Positions 3 to 28,986 of a stretch of 29,341 bases of DNA are shown one piece after another. The DNA lies in IMG/VR virus record IMGVR_UViG_3300043449_001450, positions 1-29,341 of that record; one strand, given 5' to 3'. Both the position numbers and the translations under genes were made by a program. Each line of letters begins with the position of its first letter. Position 1 is the stretch's first letter. The DNA is from a virus. The notes beneath the pieces are model-generated. The model did no database searches, was not told where the DNA came from, and was given only the letters and a program-made list of their open reading frames with translations.

Positions 3-287
3 AATGATTCTAAATTTTTAATAGCCCCATTATCAGGTAAAAGATATATTAAAAATACAAGTTTAGATTTATTCGTAATTCTTAACGATAGACGAGTTAG
101 TTTAACTAATCATGTTTATCACTATGATGTAAGACTACCTGAACGAGAATGGGATAGGTTAACAACAATGTATGATAACAAAACGGAAAAAATACGAATT
201 GATTTAGAAAATCAAATTAAATCCCAAATAAATTATTCTTTAACTACAATATTAGATAAAGTAAATAAATCTTTTGACCATCAATAA
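3..287 (+). CDS. hypothetical protein, C-terminal part, cut by the left edge
   Basis: An open frame enters from the left edge and runs 94 codons to a TAA at 285-287. No start codon is visible because the gene begins outside the window. The readable part is charged and fairly hydrophilic. It contains the stretch SGKRYIKNTSLDLFVILNDR and ends in a probable helix finishing NKSFDHQ. I do not recognise the family. The next gene starts one base after its stop, so the two are probably co-transcribed and end together at the hairpin at 533-560. The frame is open throughout and matches its neighbours in codon use, so I think it is real. Confidence 0.6.
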   Translation, partial: NDSKFLIAPLSGKRYIKNTSLDLFVILNDRRVSLTNHVYHYDVRLPEREWDRLTTMYDNKTEKIRIDLENQIKSQINYSLTTILDKVNKSFDHQ

Positions 288-288
288 T

Positions 289-534
289 ATGATTGAAAAT
301 AACGAAATCTACGGTAAATTATTTAATAAAATTGTATTACAAGATGAATCTCATTTAGAGGCTCTTTTAGATAGTATGGATAGAGAACGAGCAATTTATT
401 TGTTAGTGGAATCTGTTAGATATGCTTATAATATGAATGCTTACACAATAGGAGAGTCTGAGGTAATTTCTAAATGTATTCGAATATTAAGTAGGATTGA
501 TTCAGAAGACACCAAAGAAACTGATATAAATTAA
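289..534 (+). CDS. hypothetical protein, 81 aa
   Basis: I choose the ATG at 289, which directly follows the upstream stop (TAA T ATG). A TTG at 274 would overlap the previous gene and is less likely. The product is a small, mostly helical, acidic protein with the motif DSMDRERAIYLLVESVRYAY and no signal peptide or membrane segment. I do not recognise a family. It lies tail-to-tail with the minus-strand gene ending at 580, and the terminator between them serves both. It may be a small regulatory or middle-expressed phage protein, but nothing in the sequence shows that. Confidence 0.65.
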   Translation: MIENNEIYGKLFNKIVLQDESHLEALLDSMDRERAIYLLVESVRYAYNMNAYTIGESEVISKCIRILSRIDSEDTKETDIN

Positions 535-2766: not shown

Positions 2767-2793
2767 AAAAAAAAATGGGGAATTAATCCCCAT
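2767..2793 (-). terminator. intrinsic terminator at the end of the CUB/GEVED gene
   Basis: A perfect 7-bp inverted repeat, ATGGGGA/TCCCCAT (2775-2781 with 2787-2793), is followed on the minus strand by a run of T residues. It lies just after the stop codon at 2798. Confidence 0.8.
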
Positions 2794-2797
2794 CTTA

Positions 2798-4825
2798 TTA
2801 ATAGTTTATTATTTTTCTTGAGGTGTTATCATCGTAAACTTCAAATATTACACCTTTTGTATTTCTATCCACTTCTTGACCCATTAGGTTAACATACTTG
2901 ACCACTTTTTTAAATGTTTTTGAATTATCCAATGATATTGGTCCATATATTTTATATTGACCGTCATAATCCATTTGAATTAATCTGTAATAATGTATTG
3001 TAAATTCTTTAAATGAATCTAAATAACTATAGTTCATTGTGCTATTACTATTTCCTGAAGACAATCTTGTACCAACGTATTCCCAATTTTCACCGTCAGT
3101 ACTTCTTTCAATTTTAAAATAATTGGAGTTATGTTCAGATGCGGTTGACCATTTTAATGAATTAAAGGATGGGTATTCATAACCATCAAAATAAATTAAT
3201 TCTACAGGTAGGGCAACAGGATTTGAAAGTCTAACAGTATATTCTTCAATCTCACCATAACCATAACCTGTGGTATAATAAGCATCGTTTGATGGTGTTA
3301 CTCCCCAAGCTGATAAAACTCTCATTAAAAAGTCACCTGTTGCAGCATCTGATGGTATTGTAATTAATTGTGATGTTGAATTTGCTGGGGCTTTTTGTAA
3401 AACATTTTCAGTTGTTTGAAAAGTACCATCACCATTATAGTCAATCCATGCGGCATATCCTTGACCTGACTGAAAAGTATTTGTTGCGGTAACACTTAAT
3501 TGATATGGTTCTCCTTTTGTTAACTCAATAACTTGAGAAGTAAAATCTTGATAAGCATCTCCATCGTTTGTGGAAGTGTTATTAATATTACCAAATGTTA
3601 CATTTGATATATAATCTCCATCATCGATTCCTGTTGAATATGTTGATGCGTTTCTTAAATTTACACTAACAACATTACTTAAACCTGAAGGGCAATTACC
3701 ATTTTTAGATGTTGTTCTAAACCAAATTTGTGTTTGTTGTACATTCATTCTAATACTATATGGGTTTGCAGGATTACTTGTTGACCCCGCAACTGTTGTA
3801 AAATTATTAAATGACCACTCAATCAAGGTAATATTTCCTTCGTTACCACTTGTTGTTAATGTTGTTGCATCATTAACTGTAGTATTTGATTTTGATGAAG
3901 TAATTGTTCCACCATTTGTTGGTGTTGTACAAACTGTAACCGATGTTATATTAGTAGCAAACCCACCCCAAGTACCGACATTAGAAATATCGGTTGTCCA
4001 TCTAATTGTAAGTTGTCCTGAAGCATTTTCTGCAGTTACATTAGGTGGTATTGTTGTACCATTAAGTGTTGCAAGTAATGTTGATGAGGTATTTGGACCA
4101 TCGTAAATGTATAGATAATCATAATTTGTTTCTAAATCCATTTGAGTGAATTGTAGTTGTAATTTTTTTGTATTATCTGAAGGGGTTAATGTAATTGTTC
4201 TATTTAAACTATTTGAATACCCTCCTAACGCAGGTCCTGCAGGTCCTACATCATCAGTTAATGTATAAGTAAATGATGAGTTAAGAGTTTGAGAACAATT
4301 ACCTAACATAGGTATTAATGTATTTTCACTTGATACTGTAGATGTTAATCCTAAGTCATCCACATATCTTTCATGAGAACCTGTACCACTTCTTGCATCA
4401 ACTAATCTAATATATACGTTTGTTAAACCTAACGCTCCGATGTTTAATGTATATTGTTGGTATGTTGTAGTAACTGTAGTAATAGACCCCCTTGTTGTCC
4501 AAGTTGTATTATCAGGTGACGTTTGTATATTTAAAACCCAAGCAGTTGTATTTGTACTTCTTCTATACCAAAATGTTAATACACCAGGATTTGAGATTAG
4601 TGGTGTTCTTAAAACATCATTTGTGGCGTTAAAAGTCGCATGATTCGTACCTGTACGATTTGGTGTGGTTAAAAAAGACATTGATGTTCCAGCCCAAGTA
4701 CCTTTTTGTGTTGGTAATGATGAACTAAAACTTTCGTAAAGAAAGTATTGGTTACATTGTGAGAACAAATTGAAACTTGTGATTAAATAAATCACAAAAA
4801 AAATCAAAATAAAAATTTTTTTCAC
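2798..4825 (-). CDS. secreted surface protein: signal peptide, CUB-like, GEVED-like and T9SS-like C-terminal domains (675 aa)
   Basis: Residues 1-22 are a classic signal peptide ending NLFS, with Gln23 next, matching the Bacteroidota habit of Gln at +1 after signal peptidase I. A jelly-roll-like region (about 28-165) is followed by a CUB-like domain (about 176-298, with DYLYIYDGP and GWGGFAT-like features), an Ig-like linker, and a GEVED-type domain (about 403-533: AAWIDYNGDGTF ... GYGEIEEYTV). An ALPVELIYF module (about 538-632) comes next, a sequence common just before T9SS tails. The C-terminus has NLMGQEVD and ends TSRKIINY, like a type A sorting domain. The start codon appears to be GTG. 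Export to the host surface is the best reading. A tail adhesin is less likely given the signal peptide. Confidence 0.82.
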   Translation of the reverse strand: MKKIFILIFFVIYLITSFNLFSQCNQYFLYESFSSSLPTQKGTWAGTSMSFLTTPNRTGTNHATFNATNDVLRTPLISNPGVLTFWYRRSTNTTAWVLNIQTSPDNTTWTTRGSITTVTTTYQQYTLNIGALGLTNVYIRLVDARSGTGSHERYVDDLGLTSTVSSENTLIPMLGNCSQTLNSSFTYTLTDDVGPAGPALGGYSNSLNRTITLTPSDNTKKLQLQFTQMDLETNYDYLYIYDGPNTSSTLLATLNGTTIPPNVTAENASGQLTIRWTTDISNVGTWGGFATNITSVTVCTTPTNGGTITSSKSNTTVNDATTLTTSGNEGNITLIEWSFNNFTTVAGSTSNPANPYSIRMNVQQTQIWFRTTSKNGNCPSGLSNVVSVNLRNASTYSTGIDDGDYISNVTFGNINNTSTNDGDAYQDFTSQVIELTKGEPYQLSVTATNTFQSGQGYAAWIDYNGDGTFQTTENVLQKAPANSTSQLITIPSDAATGDFLMRVLSAWGVTPSNDAYYTTGYGYGEIEEYTVRLSNPVALPVELIYFDGYEYPSFNSLKWSTASEHNSNYFKIERSTDGENWEYVGTRLSSGNSNSTMNYSYLDSFKEFTIHYYRLIQMDYDGQYKIYGPISLDNSKTFKKVVKYVNLMGQEVDRNTKGVIFEVYDDNTSRKIINY

Positions 4826-4838
4826 TATTGTGTTTTTT

Positions 4839-4873
4839 AAAAAAAGATTCCCCTATATAATAAATATAGGGGA
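4839..4873 (-). terminator. intrinsic terminator between the 32-aa gene and the CUB/GEVED gene
   Basis: A perfect 9-bp stem, TCCCCTATA/TATAGGGGA (4849-4857 with 4865-4873), has a 7-base loop and is followed on the minus strand by seven T residues. It would end transcripts from the protease unit (6812 to 4936). The loop and its edge include one copy of ATATTTAT (4860-4867), 34 bases before the next start, so termination and re-initiation signals may overlap here. Confidence 0.75.
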
Positions 4874-4935
4874 CTTATCTTTTAATCAATACATCAGTAT
4901 GTGTAAATTTTCATTTGAGGGGAATCATTTTATAT

Positions 4936-5034
4936 TTACACGGTCTGAGTGATTATTTTTACCATCATCATAACTGAAAACGTTACTCCAGTTATTAATG
5001 TTGTTAATATTATGTTAAAAAAGTTATCTTTCAT
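4936..5034 (-). CDS. 32-aa single-span membrane peptide
   Basis: The ATG overlaps the stop of the 112-aa gene in an ATGA arrangement (5031-5034), which usually means translational coupling. The peptide starts MKDNFF, has one hydrophobic segment from about residue 5 to 28 (NIILTTLITGVTFSVMMMV), and ends TQTV. It is too short to identify by family. The overlap, the shared transcription unit and the clean membrane segment make it credible. Its position next to exported proteins could suit a small membrane helper, a holin-like or an exclusion peptide, but none of these is shown by the sequence. Confidence 0.55.
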   Translation of the reverse strand: MKDNFFNIILTTLITGVTFSVMMMVKIITQTV

Positions 5035-5369
5035 TTTATTAATATTTTATGACCAAAAAACGCACTTAAAATTTCATCATCACTTTCTTTTATTAAATCA
5101 TTTTTTGTAATTTCTAAAATTTCACATAATGAATTTGAGTTATTAATTATATCACAAGACTCCACTTTAAATTTTTGTATTTTTTTTATCATTTCTAACG
5201 TTAATTCAATATCCTTTATCGATTTGTTATTAGATTTATCTGAGAAATCACCTATTTCCTTTAAAAGGTCATTTATAACATCCCAACAATGGTCATTTAC
5301 CATTTTACAAACTCTTTCTTTCGCTTCTGTTAAATTAACTTCGATTCTCATTTTTATTTTTGTTCCCAT
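5031..5369 (-). CDS. hypothetical helical protein, 112 aa
   Basis: It starts 12 bases after the stop of the subtilase gene and overlaps the following 32-aa membrane peptide by 4 bases, so the three form one unit. The product looks all-helical and cytoplasmic, with four Cys residues and LTLEMIKKIQKF as its most regular helix. There is no signal peptide, unlike both large neighbours. An in-frame Met at residue 7 is an alternative start. I do not recognise the family. A role tied to the protease or the membrane peptide is possible from position only. Confidence 0.7.
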   Translation of the reverse strand: MGTKIKMRIEVNLTEAKERVCKMVNDHCWDVINDLLKEIGDFSDKSNNKSIKDIELTLEMIKKIQKFKVESCDIINNSNSLCEILEITKNDLIKESDDEILSAFFGHKILIK

Positions 5370-5381
5370 TTAATTGGTGTT

Positions 5382-6812
5382 TTAGCCCTTATAAATTCTT
5401 TTAACAATAACACCTCTATCTATAATATAATAAATACCAGGTAATGCGTTGTCTAAATTAGTCACTTTACCATTTACATCAATTACAATGGTGTCACCAA
5501 AACCTTCAGATAATTCTTTTTGTCCTTTATCCCATCCGTAGTGATTTCCATTCCCACCCTGATTTCCACCACCTTGACCAGGATTAGAAGAGTCAACTCC
5601 ATCCTCATCATTCCCATGACCATTATTTCCATCATTATTAGATAAGTCAATTAAGTTTTGAACCATTCTTAATGCCTCACCTGAGTTTAATCTACCTGAC
5701 CCTATTTTACCAACATAATTTGGATTTAGTAAATCGATATTAGTCGCACTAACTCTTAGAATTGAATCTATTTCGTCATTTGTTAAATCTTCTTTTAATG
5801 ATAACATTAATGCGACTGTTCCTGTTACATATGGTGTCGCGAATGATGAACCACTTGAGTATGTATACCATCCTGGTGCGGGTGTTAAAGGTACGTTATG
5901 TCCAGGAGCACATAAATCTACAGAAGAGTTTGTTTGGTGTCTTGTAGATGGATTACCTATTACTTTTTCAATATTGTCTTGACTACCTACACTTGTCACC
6001 GCAAATACGTGATTATATGATGACGGATAAACTAAAGCGTCAGGATTACCACAAGTCGAACCATTTCCCGCTGCCGCAACAATAAACGTTCCGTTATTAT
6101 ATATTTCATCTATTACTTGTTGTGCATATATGTTAAAACTACAACTAGATGCCCAAGATAAATTAATAACTCTTGCCCCATTATAAGAAGCGTTTAACAT
6201 ATCATTATAATTCATTCTAAATAAATTAAGTGTTGTATTATAACCTATTGATGAGATACCAATAGAGTTATTTGTGTTTCCTGCAACTATTGTTGCCACG
6301 GCCGTACCGTGTGTTCTTGTTGCGGTGTTTGTGTTGTCATAATAATTAATTTTACCGTTCAGTTCTTCGTGGGTATTATAGTAATTTTGGTCAGAAATTG
6401 CCACGTTTAGATTGGGATTACCCGTTGTGTATGACCATGCAGTTTGGGCGTTTATTAAATCTAAAGCCCAATTATTGGAAAATGTCGTTGTGTAGTCATT
6501 TGGTAACTCTAATGTTTCGTAAGTTGGTGCGTATTCAATACCTTTTAAACCTTCTACTCTATGTAGAGATGTGTATAAATCTACGATGTTACAATCACAA
6601 GTAAATTCATATACATTTTGTAATGACTCTTGTTTTGAAAATGGGAAGGCTTTTGTGTAAACTAAGTCAGTTTTTAATGTGGTTAGTACTGTTTGTAATT
6701 CTAATTTATTAACATCTTCTACTGTTACCCATACTGAACCTTTTTGTGCGAAAGATACTACAGTTAATAAACTAATTAGTAAAGTTGAGATTGTTGTTTT
6801 TAATTTTTTCAT
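5382..6812 (-). CDS. secreted subtilisin-like serine protease (S8) with T9SS-like C-terminus (476 aa)
   Basis: The signal peptide spans residues 1-22 (ends VVSFA, then Gln23). Residues about 24-100 are a short prodomain-like segment. The S8 catalytic set is complete: Asp141 (AISDQNYY), His168 (THGTAVATIVAG), Asn250 of the oxyanion hole (AAAGNG) and Ser323 (SGSSFATPYVTG). A Gly/Asn-rich linker (about 390-425) leads to a C-terminus ending GIYYIIDRGVIVKRIYKG, which resembles a Bacteroidota T9SS sorting tail. The host would therefore be expected to export it and possibly anchor it on the surface. Two inverted repeats lie in the 170 bases upstream, one abutting the start codon. A virion-borne protease is the alternative, but the signal peptide argues against it. 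Confidence 0.88.
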   Translation of the reverse strand: MKKLKTTISTLLISLLTVVSFAQKGSVWVTVEDVNKLELQTVLTTLKTDLVYTKAFPFSKQESLQNVYEFTCDCNIVDLYTSLHRVEGLKGIEYAPTYETLELPNDYTTTFSNNWALDLINAQTAWSYTTGNPNLNVAISDQNYYNTHEELNGKINYYDNTNTATRTHGTAVATIVAGNTNNSIGISSIGYNTTLNLFRMNYNDMLNASYNGARVINLSWASSCSFNIYAQQVIDEIYNNGTFIVAAAGNGSTCGNPDALVYPSSYNHVFAVTSVGSQDNIEKVIGNPSTRHQTNSSVDLCAPGHNVPLTPAPGWYTYSSGSSFATPYVTGTVALMLSLKEDLTNDEIDSILRVSATNIDLLNPNYVGKIGSGRLNSGEALRMVQNLIDLSNNDGNNGHGNDEDGVDSSNPGQGGGNQGGNGNHYGWDKGQKELSEGFGDTIVIDVNGKVTNLDNALPGIYYIIDRGVIVKRIYKG

Positions 6813-6968: not shown

Positions 6969-6980
6969 TTTATAAAATAA

Positions 6981-7009
6981 AAAAGGTCAGAGAATTTCTC
7001 TGACCTTTT
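6981..7009. terminator. intrinsic terminator after the major capsid gene
   Basis: A 9-bp GC-containing stem, GGTCAGAGA/TCTCTGACC (6985-6993 with 6997-7005), is flanked by A4 and T4 extensions and gives a U-tract on the minus strand. It lies 20 bases after the capsid gene stop. Confidence 0.85.
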
Positions 7010-7029
7010 CTTTATTTTGAGTTTGTTGA

Positions 7030-8901
7030 TTATCTCAATTCTCTCAAGTCGAATGTACGGATACCATCAACTGTAATTCTACCATAGAAACGGTTGTTAA
7101 CCATTTTCTTAGCGTATCTTGTCATGATACCTTTGATAGGTGTAAAGTTGAATGGGTTATACATTGTAGGAGTTAATTGTAGAGGTACATACGGTGCGTA
7201 GATGTAACCTGTGTCTAACAATGATGTTCCTTTGTGCCCGATTAACACTTGGTTAGGTGGGAAGTAAGGGTCACGGTAAACTTGGTAACGACCTGATAAT
7301 GTACCAACTCTTTCAATACCCATGTTGTATTGGTCTTGCTCAGGAGACGCGTTAGATACGTGGAAGTATTCTAAATCATCAAAAATCGCAGATACCTCAG
7401 AAGATACAACAATCCAGTTAGCTCCACCTCTTAAAGTAGATTTGTGGATTTGTGCTGACAATTGGTTGATTGCCGTAATCAACGTTTGGTTCCAGTCTTT
7501 TTGTGTATACGCAGTAGTTGCGTTGATTCTTCTCCATCCGTTGTAATCCCAACGTAAGTTCCAAGCCGCACCTTTTCTAAGGTCTCTTAAGATTTCACGG
7601 TCGATTTCAGCCGCAACTTGCTCAGATAATAAAGCCGTTAATTCAGCTTCAGCATCGATGTTGTGGAATGCCGCTACGTCTTGAGCCAATTCAGGTGACC
7701 ATTGTGCTCTTAATTTTCTTTCAGTTACAGAAACTGTTACAGACTCAAGGTCGAAAGAAACCTCACCGATTTTGTCTTCGAATTCAAGTTCTTTGTAACG
7801 TCTGAATACTGCAGTAATATCTTGGTTAGCCAATGTTCCGATTGTACTTCCTGTATAACCATCTAAAGATGTTGCATTACAGTTAGCACATACAGGACAA
7901 GAAAGGTCAACTTCTAAATAGATACAACCTTCTGGATTACAGATGTTATTGTAATAACCACCGTTACCATCTGCAGGGAAGTTAGCTTGTGCTCTATTAG
8001 ATAGACCTGATACGATACCTTGACCATATTGTTGAGTAACAACTCTAAACAATAATGATTTAGAATTACTATTGTCATCAAATAAAGGTGAACATGGTGA
8101 ATCTGCATCTAAGAAATCATTTGTAGTAAATAATCTTAAATCAGCTAAGAAAGATTCAGTATCATATTCGTTTCCATCAGGACCGATTAATTTACCGTTA
8201 CCAACATTAGCAAAACCACACATTTTAACGATTACTTTTCTAACGTTTTGTCCGTCATAAGCTCCGTCAGCATCTTTTAAGTTAGAACCATCCCAAACTT
8301 GTGCAACAGTGTCAACAGTAATTGCAGACCACTGACCTTTAGAATAGTCAAACAATCCTGGAGGGTCTAATTGACCTTCGTTACCTTCGTAGAATAAATC
8401 ATAAAGACTTTTCTTATAAGTAGGATTGTAAGTACCTGTTCCAGTAGTATAACCTTGACCAGCTTTTGCTTCGTCAGCAGTTAAACCATCTACCGCACCT
8501 ACAGGTCCATAATGTTCTCCTGAACCACCTTCGTAAGTGGTAAAGTCGTAATCACCGTTGTTATAACCTTGGATTTTAGGTACGAAGTAGAACAATTTAC
8601 CGATAGGTAAGTTCATAGCTTGTACAGATACGATATCGTTAGCTAATAATTTAGAGAATACACGTCTAACGATTGGGAAAACTACAGTTTCGAATGAACC
8701 TGATGAACCGTCAGAAGTTGCCTCATTGATTAGGAAAGACGCTTGGTTCTCATATAACTGAGCCACGTTCTCTTTTAAGTGTCCTCTTAGACCCTCTAGG
8801 AATCCTAATCTATCCCATTTGTTAATTGTATCTTCTTTGATAACTTTAAGGTGTTTCAAACCGATGTTACCAACAAGACCTGATTCTAATAATGCTCCCA
8901 T
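7030..8901 (-). CDS. 23: T4-type major capsid protein (gp23-like), 623 aa
   Basis: T4 gp23 features are clear. SFLINE60|A61 is the expected prohead-protease cut ((I/L)-x-E|A), followed by VVFPIVRR near residue 73. The conserved segment WSPELAQDVAAFHNIDAEAE spans about 401-420. GRYQVYRDPYF and DTGYIYAPYVPLQLTP lie near the C-terminus. At 623 residues it is about 100 longer than T4 gp23. Much of the extra length sits between residues about 115 and 365, including a Cys cluster (Cys321, 326, 335, 338, 341). The leader is A-rich without a Shine-Dalgarno, and the gene follows the scaffold by 39 bases. It forms the hexamers of the capsid shell. I see no gp24-type vertex gene in the window. Confidence 0.95.
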   Translation of the reverse strand: MGALLESGLVGNIGLKHLKVIKEDTINKWDRLGFLEGLRGHLKENVAQLYENQASFLINEATSDGSSGSFETVVFPIVRRVFSKLLANDIVSVQAMNLPIGKLFYFVPKIQGYNNGDYDFTTYEGGSGEHYGPVGAVDGLTADEAKAGQGYTTGTGTYNPTYKKSLYDLFYEGNEGQLDPPGLFDYSKGQWSAITVDTVAQVWDGSNLKDADGAYDGQNVRKVIVKMCGFANVGNGKLIGPDGNEYDTESFLADLRLFTTNDFLDADSPCSPLFDDNSNSKSLLFRVVTQQYGQGIVSGLSNRAQANFPADGNGGYYNNICNPEGCIYLEVDLSCPVCANCNATSLDGYTGSTIGTLANQDITAVFRRYKELEFEDKIGEVSFDLESVTVSVTERKLRAQWSPELAQDVAAFHNIDAEAELTALLSEQVAAEIDREILRDLRKGAAWNLRWDYNGWRRINATTAYTQKDWNQTLITAINQLSAQIHKSTLRGGANWIVVSSEVSAIFDDLEYFHVSNASPEQDQYNMGIERVGTLSGRYQVYRDPYFPPNQVLIGHKGTSLLDTGYIYAPYVPLQLTPTMYNPFNFTPIKGIMTRYAKKMVNNRFYGRITVDGIRTFDLRELR

Positions 8902-24225: not shown

Positions 24226-26262
24226 ATGATAGAATCTAAAGACGGTGGCAACCAAAACAAAAATAAAGGTAACGAGTCAAGCTCAACTCCTGTTTTGGAT
24301 AATTTTAGTAGAGATTTAATTAAGTTAGCTGAAGAAGGTAAGTTAGACCCTGTTGTAGGTAGAGAACGTGAAATAACAAGAATCGCCCAAATCTTATCAA
24401 GAAGAAAAAAGAATAACCCAATTATTATTGGTGAACCAGGTTGTGGTAAAACTGCTATTGCAGAAGGATTGGCAATAAAAATATTTAATGGAGAATGTCC
24501 AAGAAATTTAACTGACAAAAGAATTGTGTCATTAGATATGACATCAATCGTAGCAGGTACAAAATATCGAGGTCAATTTGAAGAGCGTATGAAGGTGATT
24601 ATTGAAGAATTACAAAATGCCCCAAATATCATAGTATTCATTGACGAAATACACACTATTGTTGGAGCAGGTAATTCGTCAGGTTCATTAGACGCTTCTA
24701 ACATATTTAAACCTGCATTGGCCAGAGGGGAAATTCAATGTATAGGTGCAACAACTTTAGATGAATACCGTAAAAATTTTGAAAAGGATGGTGCTTTAGA
24801 ACGTAGATTCCAAAAAGTTATTGTTGACCCTGCAACTAAAGAAGAAACATTACAAATTCTACAGAACACAAAAGACAGATACGAAACATATCATAAAGTT
24901 AAATATTCTAACGAAGTTCTAACATTGTGTGTTGATTTGGCTGAAAGATATATTACCGATAGAGAATTTCCTGATAAAGCGTTTGATATCATAGATGAGG
25001 TTGGTGCAAGAAGTCAAGTTGAAATAAAGATGCCTGACATTATTGAAAAACTTAAACTACAAGCTCAAGAAATTAAACATGAAAAGGTTGAGGTTGTTAA
25101 ACGTCAGAAATATGAAGAGGCCGCTGATTTACGGGATAAAGAAAGACGTATCTTAGATAAATTAGACCAAGAAAAGAAAAAATTTGAAGAAGAATTACAG
25201 AATCAAAAAAGAGATGTTAGTATTGAACTAGTTTATGAGGTTGTGTCAAACATGACCAAAATTCCATTATCTAAGTTAAGTTCTGATGAAACTCAATCGT
25301 TGGCAAATTTAGAAAACAATTTGTCAAGTAAAGTTATTGGCCAATCTGAAGCGGTGTCAAGAATTGCAAAATCAATTAGAAGAAATCGTTTAGGAATTAA
25401 AGACCCTAATAAACCAATCGGTTCATTTATTTTCTTAGGTTCCACAGGTGTAGGTAAAACTTATTTGGCAAAACAATTAGCGAAAGAAATATTTGGTAGT
25501 GAGGATAGTTTAATTAGAGTTGACATGTCTGAGTTCCAAGAAAAACATACAATATCAAGATTAATTGGTGCACCTCCAGGATATGTTGGTTATGATGAAG
25601 GGGGTCAATTAACTGAACAAGTTAAAAACAAACCATATTCAGTTATTTTATTTGACGAGATTGAGAAAGCAAATAAAGATATCTTTTCATCGTTATTACA
25701 AGTTTTAGATGATGGACATATTACCGATGGCTTGGGTAGAAAAATTAATTTCAAAAATTGTGTAATAATAATGACCTCAAATTTAGGAGTTAAAAAATTA
25801 CAAGAATTTGGTACAGGTGTTGGATTTAAAAGTGATAAAAATTCATATATCGAAGAGGAATATAAACGTGATATGTTAAAGAAAGAGTTACAAAAATTCT
25901 TCGCACCTGAGTTCTTAAATAGAATTGATGAAATTGTTATATTTAATTCTCTTAAGAAAGAAGAAGTTAAATCAATCGTTAAATTAGAAATTGATAAATT
26001 ATTTGACCGTTTAAATAATTTAAAATATCAAATCACATATGATGAAAGTATTATTGAATTAATATCTGAAGTTGGGTTTGATGAAACTTATGGAGCAAGA
26101 CCAATAAAAAGGGCAATACAAGATAAGATAGAAGATTTTATTTCTGAAGAAGTTTTAAAAGGTGAGATTATAACTACAAATCAATACCTAATTTATTCTG
26201 AAGAAAAAACGGTGAAAATTAAAACTACCAAAAAGAGTAGAAAGAAAAAAGGGAGTGAGTAA
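24226..26262 (+). CDS. clpC: ClpC-like AAA+ unfoldase lacking the N-domain (678 aa)
   Basis: Both AAA+ modules are complete. D1 has Walker A GEPGCGKT (69-76), Walker B VFIDE (137-141), pore loop KYRG (113-116) and LERRF. D2 has GSTGVGKT (405-412), ILFDE (474-478), pore loop GYVG (452-455) and sensor GARPIKR (623-629). A UVR-like segment (KRQKYEEAADLRDKERR, 292-308) in the middle region marks it as ClpC rather than ClpB or ClpA. VGF at 532-534, in the loop before the D2 sensor, is the ClpP-docking tripeptide. The usual N-terminal double repeat of about 150 residues is absent, replaced by a 25-residue Asn/Lys/Ser-rich lead. It probably feeds proteins to host ClpP with altered adaptor use. The C-terminal tail is Lys-rich. 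Confidence 0.93.
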   Translation: MIESKDGGNQNKNKGNESSSTPVLDNFSRDLIKLAEEGKLDPVVGREREITRIAQILSRRKKNNPIIIGEPGCGKTAIAEGLAIKIFNGECPRNLTDKRIVSLDMTSIVAGTKYRGQFEERMKVIIEELQNAPNIIVFIDEIHTIVGAGNSSGSLDASNIFKPALARGEIQCIGATTLDEYRKNFEKDGALERRFQKVIVDPATKEETLQILQNTKDRYETYHKVKYSNEVLTLCVDLAERYITDREFPDKAFDIIDEVGARSQVEIKMPDIIEKLKLQAQEIKHEKVEVVKRQKYEEAADLRDKERRILDKLDQEKKKFEEELQNQKRDVSIELVYEVVSNMTKIPLSKLSSDETQSLANLENNLSSKVIGQSEAVSRIAKSIRRNRLGIKDPNKPIGSFIFLGSTGVGKTYLAKQLAKEIFGSEDSLIRVDMSEFQEKHTISRLIGAPPGYVGYDEGGQLTEQVKNKPYSVILFDEIEKANKDIFSSLLQVLDDGHITDGLGRKINFKNCVIIMTSNLGVKKLQEFGTGVGFKSDKNSYIEEEYKRDMLKKELQKFFAPEFLNRIDEIVIFNSLKKEEVKSIVKLEIDKLFDRLNNLKYQITYDESIIELISEVGFDETYGARPIKRAIQDKIEDFISEEVLKGEIITTNQYLIYSEEKTVKIKTTKKSRKKKGSE

Positions 26263-26274: not shown

Positions 26275-27102
26275 TTATCCAAAAATCATAAATCTTGATT
26301 TTTCTTTAGGTTTAAGAGTAAATTTTTGATTACCTAACCTTTCGATTATTTTTTTACCCGCGTCAATACCATTGTAAACATCCTCAACTACAACATACTC
26401 ATCTCTTGTGTGATAGTTATAGTACCCGATAGAAAAATTGATACATGCAAAATCAAAGATTTCTTTTAGTGCGTATACATCAGTATATGGGTGCGATTGA
26501 TATTTGTTTCTTTGTTTAAAATTTTCAGTGAGTACTTTGTCACATTCTTTAAAGAAATCACTTTCACGTTCAAACAATTGAGTCCCCATACAATATTCGG
26601 ATACCATCCAATTACCAGGTGCGTCAAACTCGATTGCGTATCCAACGTTTGAGAAGAATTCTTTATCGGCCTTTCTTGAACCATGACATCCTGTTTCTTC
26701 CGAAACAAAAAATCCTGCTTTAAGGTTTGGTAATTCTTTTAATAATTCCAAACAAGCATAAATACCACACTTATCATCACCACCAATACCTGTAGGTTCT
26801 CCTGAATCATTATAGGCCTTTAACGCTAATTTTAATTTTCTTTGAGCATTTGGTAATTGTTCTTCACGAACATTAATAGTGTCTAATTCATGAACCGTAT
26901 CTGTATGTGCAACAACACAAGGAAAAAACTCAACAGTTTCGTCGGTTTGTTTTGTTGCATAAATATTGGAGTGTTCGTCAACTTTAAATGGTATGTTATT
27001 TTCAGTCAACCATTCTGTAATGAATTTAATCATTAAGTCTTCCTTATAAGTCTTGGTTGGGACTGAAAGGACATTTTTTAAAAGTGTATAATCTCTTTGC
27101 AT
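26275..27102 (-). CDS. compact M20-type zinc aminopeptidase (PepT-like, 275 aa)
   Basis: The two-zinc site of M20 peptidases is complete: His66 and Asp68 (AHTDTVHE), Asp109 (GIGGDDKCG), Glu135/Glu136 (VSEETGCHGS), Asp160 (EFDAPG) and His231 (NYHTRDEYV). Glu135 is the expected general base and Asp68 the residue that orients the first ligand. At 275 residues it is much shorter than PepT (about 410), because the dimerisation or lid domain between the last metal ligands appears to be cut down. Such enzymes trim di- and tripeptides. It starts 9 bases after the unknown 464-aa gene and converges on clpC, so a role in finishing degradation of peptides is plausible but inferred. Confidence 0.85.
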   Translation of the reverse strand: MQRDYTLLKNVLSVPTKTYKEDLMIKFITEWLTENNIPFKVDEHSNIYATKQTDETVEFFPCVVAHTDTVHELDTINVREEQLPNAQRKLKLALKAYNDSGEPTGIGGDDKCGIYACLELLKELPNLKAGFFVSEETGCHGSRKADKEFFSNVGYAIEFDAPGNWMVSEYCMGTQLFERESDFFKECDKVLTENFKQRNKYQSHPYTDVYALKEIFDFACINFSIGYYNYHTRDEYVVVEDVYNGIDAGKKIIERLGNQKFTLKPKEKSRFMIFG

Positions 27103-28588: not shown

Positions 28589-28986
28589 GGGGATAACTTG
28601 GAATTGACTGGCATTGTTAGTTATTCGGGGCACGCAGTGAGAGGGTTCCTATCACTTAAATCTATGGAGTCAACAATTAAACGGCAACGTTTTAAACAAA
28701 ATGGCGGCAATCGGTCTTATCCGTGAAGACGCTGCGGTAGTAGCCTAACAGTTAGGAAACACCAATCGGGTCGGTGGACATATAACCCAGGAACAGAAGT
28801 CTTTACAAAGGTGTGGTTTCTATCCGAAAAGGAACAAGTGGAGGATTAGTTCTCAGTAAACCGAACCACTTTAAAAATAAGGGAATTGTGAAATTTCGGA
28901 TTGTTAGCTCAAACAATGTCCTAAGCGTGTAGTCCTTAATAGGTAAGGTGACCAACACGAGGGTTCGACTCCCTCTATCTCCACCA
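28589..28986 (+). ncRNA. ssrA: transfer-messenger RNA (tmRNA), one-piece, 398 nt
   Basis: The tRNA-like ends are intact: GGGGATA (28589-28595) pairs with TATCTCC (28976-28982), followed by A and an encoded CCA. The T arm is GAGGG-TTCGACT-CCCTC (28959-28975). An early pseudoknot stem AGTGA/TCACT (28636-28640 with 28652-28656) and the following TTAAATCT resemble Bacteroidota tmRNAs. The tag frame most likely resumes at GGC 28683 and ends at TAA 28746-28748. It gives 21 residues starting GNVLNKM and ending REDAAVVA, longer than and unlike the usual host GE(N/T)NYALAA tag. It rescues stalled ribosomes and marks the products for proteolysis. A later resume codon (GCG 28704) giving 14 residues cannot be excluded. 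Confidence 0.93.

Follow-up and report, generated by a model that had tools for sequence, protein, structure and literature searches.

The window analysed here is the whole of a 29.3 kb stretch of an IMG/VR virus record, whose minus strand carries a T4-type head cluster with genes for terminase, portal, prohead protease, a scaffold-like protein, and the Gp23 capsid protein. Directly after the capsid gene follow genes for a 476-amino-acid (aa) subtilisin-like protease, a 112-aa protein, a 32-aa peptide, and a 675-aa CUB/GEVED protein (Table 1). The subject of this report is the protease and the CUB/GEVED protein, both of which end in short tails resembling the sorting signals of the Bacteroidota type IX secretion system (T9SS). 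A first-pass annotation had placed these four open reading frames (ORFs) in a T4-type late region; the identification of the Gp23 major capsid protein (MCP), portal, terminase, and prohead protease bore this out, and the ORFs lie where it had drawn them.

The capsid-protease-CUB/GEVED order also occurs in several contigs (L001, L003, L014, L021, and L035), and in many other contigs the capsid gene is followed by a tail-bearing protein with no protease present. Purifying selection acts on both window genes, with pairwise ratios of nonsynonymous to synonymous substitution (dN/dS) of 0.09-0.19 and 0.26-0.30. Neither protein had a close relative among the INPHARED phage records, where the matches were limited to distant proteases and four uncultured huge phages. 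The latter have the pre-tail domain in common with the CUB/GEVED protein, and one of them (LR745206, 635 kb) carries the same short tail at the end of its protein. Terminator-like hairpins are enriched across the region (8 observed vs 1.8 expected), and the placement of the three listed in Table 1 would fit two moron-like transcription units. Sigma-70 promoters in the region occurred at chance frequency and none stood out; a scan for the T4 late promoter TATAAATA also returned a chance frequency.

Table 1. Features of the region in window coordinates
Feature	Residues	Position	Strand	Basis
Gp23 MCP		7030-8901	(-)	family search
Terminator-like hairpin between capsid and protease genes		6979..7011	(-)	hairpin scan
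Subtilisin-like (S8) protease, 476 aa		5382..6812	(-)	ORF, PF00082, alignment
Protease signal peptide, Gln at +1 (Q23)	1-22	6747..6812	(-)	sequence; Q-rule (PMC5837995)
Protease I9-like propeptide, probable	about 25-94			predicted secondary-structure order
Protease catalytic domain	about 117-392			
Protease Gly/Asn-rich linker	393-440			
Protease short T9SS-like sorting tail	441-476	5385..5492	(-)	hhalign; long-tailed orthologues
112-aa protein without signal peptide, accessory gene		5031..5369	(-)	ORF
32-aa single-span membrane peptide		4936..5034	(-)	ORF; overlaps 112-aa stop
Terminator-like hairpin between protease/112-aa/32-aa unit and CUB/GEVED gene		4849..4873	(-)	hairpin scan
CUB/GEVED adhesin-like secreted protein, 675 aa, GTG start		2798..4825	(-)	ORF, Pfam, model
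CUB/GEVED protein signal peptide, Gln at +1		4760..4825	(-)	sequence
CUB domain	173-298 (model)	3932..4309	(-)	Pfam and fold comparison
GEVED domain	457-531	3233..3457	(-)	Pfam
Putative short sorting tail FKKVVKYVNLMGQEVDRNTKGVIFEVYDDNTSRKIINY, 38 residues		2801..2914	(-)	recurrence in homologues; model
Terminator-like hairpin 3' of CUB/GEVED gene, before next gene		2772..2796	(-)	hairpin scan

Domains and signal peptides of the two proteins

The protease belongs to peptidase family S8: PF00082 matched it at 102.7 bits (Pfam cut-off, 21.8), and Asp141, His168, Asn250, and Ser323 align with the catalytic residues of subtilisin and do not vary among 12 phage homologues. In a low-confidence AlphaFold2 model, residues 25-94 follow a beta-alpha-beta-beta-alpha-beta order, which suggests an I9-type propeptide. 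Other phage subtilisin-like proteases (e.g. phrog_3677, Bacillus phage SP-15) likewise have the S8 catalytic domain, with an identity of approximately 29% over that domain only.

The 675-aa protein carries CUB and GEVED domains, both above the Pfam cut-offs (30.8 vs 21.4 and 55.5 vs 24.4 bits, respectively), and also contains a 'LPVEL...TASE...YYRL' domain; a PHROGs search with the protein matched no family. Its predicted model reached a mean predicted local distance difference test (pLDDT) score of 71. In a PDB fold search that covered mainly residues 62-298, the modelled CUB fold resembled the neuropilin-1 CUB domain (Z 16.5, root-mean-square deviation 1.7 Å over 114 residues), and a jelly-roll-like N-terminal domain resembled reelin (Z about 12).

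Both proteins start with M-K-K and have S or A followed by Q, with Q at residue 23 in each; in the CUB/GEVED protein, Q23 is invariant across 23 homologues. Gln at position +1 of the signal peptide (the Q-rule) is Bacteroidetes-specific (PMC5837995). Using a simple sequence rule to call signal peptides, we found the Q+1 type in 56 of the 61 full-length proteins with the CUB/GEVED-type tail, compared with 12 of 290 other ORFs called by the same rule, and about half of these 12 were protease orthologues or other T9SS-type proteins. An N-terminal Sec signal peptide of the kind found on T9SS type A cargo, with Q+1 conserved across the family, is predicted for both proteins. The first-pass annotation was therefore correct in assigning all four catalytic positions to the protease and, as far as the sequences go, a signal peptide with Gln at +1 to both proteins.

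C-terminal tails and their distribution

The protease tail contains motifs B (VIDVNGKV), D (LPGIYYII), and E (VKRIYKG), that is, the motif B glycine (VNGKV), the motif D GxY (PGIYYII), and the basic motif E of short C-terminal domains (CTDs). The tail is kept in homologues, G448, G459, and Y461 are invariant in the protease family, and the low-confidence model places strands at residues 442-444, 459-465, and 468-475. Two phage orthologues (L005 and L007, from records G005 and G007), with 57-59% identity in the matching region, have a full YPNP tail, and alignment shows that the window tail corresponds to the C-terminal half of these longer tails. Against the TIGR04183 cut-off of 23 bits, L007 scored 26.0 and L005 scored 18.7; the record of the latter carries T4-type topoisomerase II genes. 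When compared with 30 canonical Flavobacteriales T9SS tails using hhalign, the protease tail gave a probability of 95% and a score of 37.4 over motifs B, D, and E, whereas 60 column shuffles reached at most 48% and 21.7, and body segments of these proteins at most 3%. At the sequence level, the protease tail is homologous to T9SS tails. It corresponds to the C-terminal half of the type A sorting domain (TIGR04183/PF18962), whose full form is present in the phage orthologues; unlike that domain, the window proteins lack the YPNP half and score below any reportable level.

The last 38 residues of the CUB/GEVED protein recur as the extreme C-terminal end of 65 distinct phage proteins, in records of up to 257 kb and in the 635 kb huge phage. 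The N-terminal modules of these proteins vary (CUB, GEVED, fn3, galactose-binding, and Ig_7), while the pre-tail domain and the tail are constant, with K2, N9, G12, Q13, and D29 of the tail invariant (set A1). AlphaFold2 predicted three main strands at residues 641-646, 658-664, and 669-674, with a pLDDT of about 80-90. One long-tailed relative (L022) matched PF18962 with an E-value of 0.0009, under the cut-off, and NCBIfam holds no model for the 38-residue tail. Taken with the conservation of the protease tail, this recurrence indicates that the T9SS-tail-like C-termini noted in the first pass are real and not due to chance.

The same tail is encoded on the chromosomes of 100 of 199 genomes from one Flavobacteriales order, with up to 12 copies per genome, and the phage and host versions matched each other with a profile probability of 99.6%. 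Among the 20 best chromosomal matches inspected, all 20 had the tail within 6 residues of the C-terminus, and most of the full-length proteins inspected have a signal peptide. In a phylum-wide sample, the tail was present in 1 of 395 genomes (the centre genome only), and SprA in 303 of 395. SprA was considered as a discriminator of the tail-bearing order and rejected, being present in 195 of the 199 genomes. Several Flavobacteriales chromosomal proteins that by eye resemble secreted esterases (L043 4038-5117, L158, and L164) end in the same short tail, so that it may also be used by enzymes that the host group secretes.

Recognised sorting domains were also found in related phages. Neighbouring genes in L102 and L038 passed the CHU_C cut-off (49.3 vs 27), and another gene, in L037, passed that of Por_Secre_tail (44 vs 27); in L102, a protein with SprB repeats and CHU_C directly adjoins a protein with the short tail.

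Short CTDs of 40-55 residues with motifs B, D, and E, for which cleavage and glycosylation have been proven, were described in Prevotella intermedia (Ye et al. 2025; PMC11969387), according to that paper the only species reported with short as well as long CTDs, and are typically predicted as one three-stranded sheet (PMC11969387). In addition, the targeting signal of HBP35 was located in the last 22 residues (PMC11285876), while motif B is required in RgpB (PMC11285876, PMC11969387). In the window, the tails are similar in size (about 40-55 residues), in motif B, the motif D region, and the basic motif E, and in their three predicted strands; they differ in coming from another lineage, in that the CUB/GEVED type has no clear GxY in motif D, and in being known from sequence alone. 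By analogy, they would fit the short-CTD plan, the protease in its motifs and the CUB/GEVED protein in part.

Probable delivery to the cell surface and rival explanations

We consider it probable that both genes are late-region cargo cassettes, addressed to the host T9SS, of a T4-type phage infecting T9SS-bearing Bacteroidota. Judging from sequence and analogy, delivery of both proteins to the cell surface by this system is likely. The T9SS address suggested in the first pass is well supported at the sequence level by the long tails of orthologues, the profile match of the protease tail, and the neighbouring cargo.

Several observations nevertheless weigh against this interpretation. Neither window protein nor its tail matched TIGR04183, PF18962, CHU_C, or any other sorting-domain model (NCBIfam, E up to 10; Pfam, E<=0.1 for whole proteins and E<=10 for tails alone), and neither protein reached the curated cut-off for T9SS type A cargo (TIGR04183/PF18962). 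The CUB/GEVED tail aligned with canonical tails at a probability of 19%, with one of 60 shuffles as good, and while its motif B (NLMGQEV) and basic motif E are present, its motif D reads GVIFEVY instead of GxY; its link to the T9SS would come from the company it keeps and not from its profile. Which CTDs are compatible depends on the species (PMC11285876), and the protease was modelled poorly (mean pLDDT 54). The first-pass annotation had named the failure of both proteins to match a TIGR04183-type hidden Markov model (HMM) as grounds for abandoning the T9SS reading, and this outcome did literally occur. We judge the test too strict, because full-length tails that do match are present on orthologues of this protease in other phages.

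The failure of the HMMs, the missing YPNP half of both tails, and the existence of long-tailed orthologues, from which it follows that tail length has changed in evolution, would also suit proteins that are exported to the periplasm only or released by lysis, with short tails that are decayed remnants unread by the T9SS. This seems unlikely to us, since the short form is itself conserved at the invariant positions given above for both families, and has spread to many proteins and host genomes, and since short CTDs are functional in P. intermedia (PMC11969387). The location of both genes directly behind the capsid gene and the adhesive nature of GEVED and CUB domains could instead point to virion parts (a Hoc-like capsid decoration and a tail-associated protease) whose hydrophobic N-termini are not working signal peptides, and Flavobacterium phage immuto has, near the matching place, an Ig-repeat-like protein without a signal peptide. 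We regard this as quite unlikely, given that the Q+1 signal peptide is kept in nearly all tail-bearing proteins (56/61) despite unrelated N-terminal modules, that secreted proteins encoded on chromosomes carry the tail as well, and that Sec-exported proteins cannot take part in head assembly in the cytoplasm. Related domains do occur in secreted proteins of Bacteroidota, as might be expected of bacterial genes misassembled onto a phage contig or of a recent, functionless capture from the host, but the repeated gene order and the purifying selection on both genes make such an origin highly improbable; the observation is not an artefact.

To return to delivery by the T9SS, the host most likely belongs to the Flavobacteriales, since the Q-rule signal peptides, the restriction of the tail to a Flavobacteriales order, and the capsid match to immuto all point in this direction; the best isolate matches of the capsid protein include immuto (41%) and also a Microcystis phage (42%). 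The Sec system of such a host would export both proteins, as their signal peptides suggest, and its T9SS would then read the short tails and translocate the proteins through the outer membrane, either onto the cell surface or into the medium, as expected from homology and from known short CTDs. The protease would probably travel as a zymogen with its N-terminal propeptide and become active outside the cytoplasm. The CUB/GEVED protein would be a multidomain, adhesin-like surface protein, with N-terminal modules swapped between phages and the sorting tail kept. The most likely use, although speculative, would be to alter the surface of the infected cell late in infection by receptor shaving or masking, such that competing phages and debris would not capture virions. 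In support of a surface role, phage-resistant isolates of Flavobacterium columnare carried mutations in T9SS and gliding genes, and sprA, gldK, gldM, gldN, or sprE mutants resisted phage V156 (PMC9233685), indicating that T9SS-dependent surface structures matter to phage entry in this species.

Phage-encoded T9SS cargo has been reported for Cryophage (PMC7468147) and crAss-like cluster 2 (PMC6949934), which similarly have genes for proteins with T9SS sorting signals; in Cryophage, these genes vary between related phages, and surface modification or superinfection exclusion was proposed there too. That cargo has recognised sorting domains and includes endoglucanase, GH39, PA14, and BACON, whereas the cargo described here consists of an S8 protease and of CUB/GEVED adhesins, ending in short tails missed by current models, in T4-type phages and beside the capsid gene. 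The idea is already known; the novelty lies in the short tail class, which is uncatalogued, and in how broadly it occurs. A broader proposal, to which we give even chances, is that the 38-residue tail represents a class of T9SS address not yet catalogued, present in Flavobacteriales chromosomes and in a broad set of large T4-type phages, where it forms a fixed surface anchor behind swapped adhesin modules, alongside the protease in some, and rebuilds the surface of infected cells. If this is true, phages of an abundant aquatic bacterial group would routinely decorate infected cells with proteases and adhesins by means of the outer-membrane secretion machine of their hosts, short CTDs would extend well past P. 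intermedia, and superinfection exclusion or virion release in Flavobacteriales would gain a concrete route. Because the short tails match no model, standard annotation misses such cargo.

Neighbouring genes and other secreted proteins

Homologues of the 112-aa protein adjoin related proteases in L118 (55%) and L094 (31%), and a homologue of the 32-aa peptide (72%) lies immediately behind the protease in L074/L001. Both genes are optional neighbours: each recurs beside the protease in some of the relatives, whereas others lack it. The earlier suggestion that they belong to the same system is thus weakly supported. A GldM-like identity for the 112-aa protein was discarded, as the match was far under the cut-offs (E 0.05 in Pfam and 0.01 in NCBIfam).

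In L037 (1-3566; phage record G005, 176 kb), a TonB-dependent-receptor-like protein adjoins a secreted protein of 520 aa that has a full T9SS tail (44 bits). A second secretome cassette was observed in L005 (4335-7422), L007 (4905-7565), L038 (103-2200), and L102 (1280-3718). Three secreted proteins are encoded there in a row; a motif like 'PI(S/Q)H(D/N)' closes two of them, and the C-terminus of the third is of the CHU_C type. In L102, a single protein of 812 aa with SprB repeats matches all three.

Downstream of the CUB/GEVED gene in the window, two minus-strand genes (1122-1556 and 1575-2729) share an N-terminal motif, MKKL..EEE(R/K)..IL..H, possibly a capsid-targeting leader, and have peptidoglycan-binding-like repeats. 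The window also holds a complete transfer-messenger RNA (tmRNA) gene at 28589-28986 (+), which matched RF00023 at 76.3 bits (cut-off, 47), ends in CCA, and is followed by a terminator-like hairpin; ARAGORN misses this gene, and its candidate tag ORF ends AAIGLIREDAAVVA. Since genes at 24226-26262 and 26275-27102 of the same window encode a ClpA/B-like AAA+ protein and a weak M20-like peptidase, respectively, the phage may bring its own genes for trans-translation and proteolysis.

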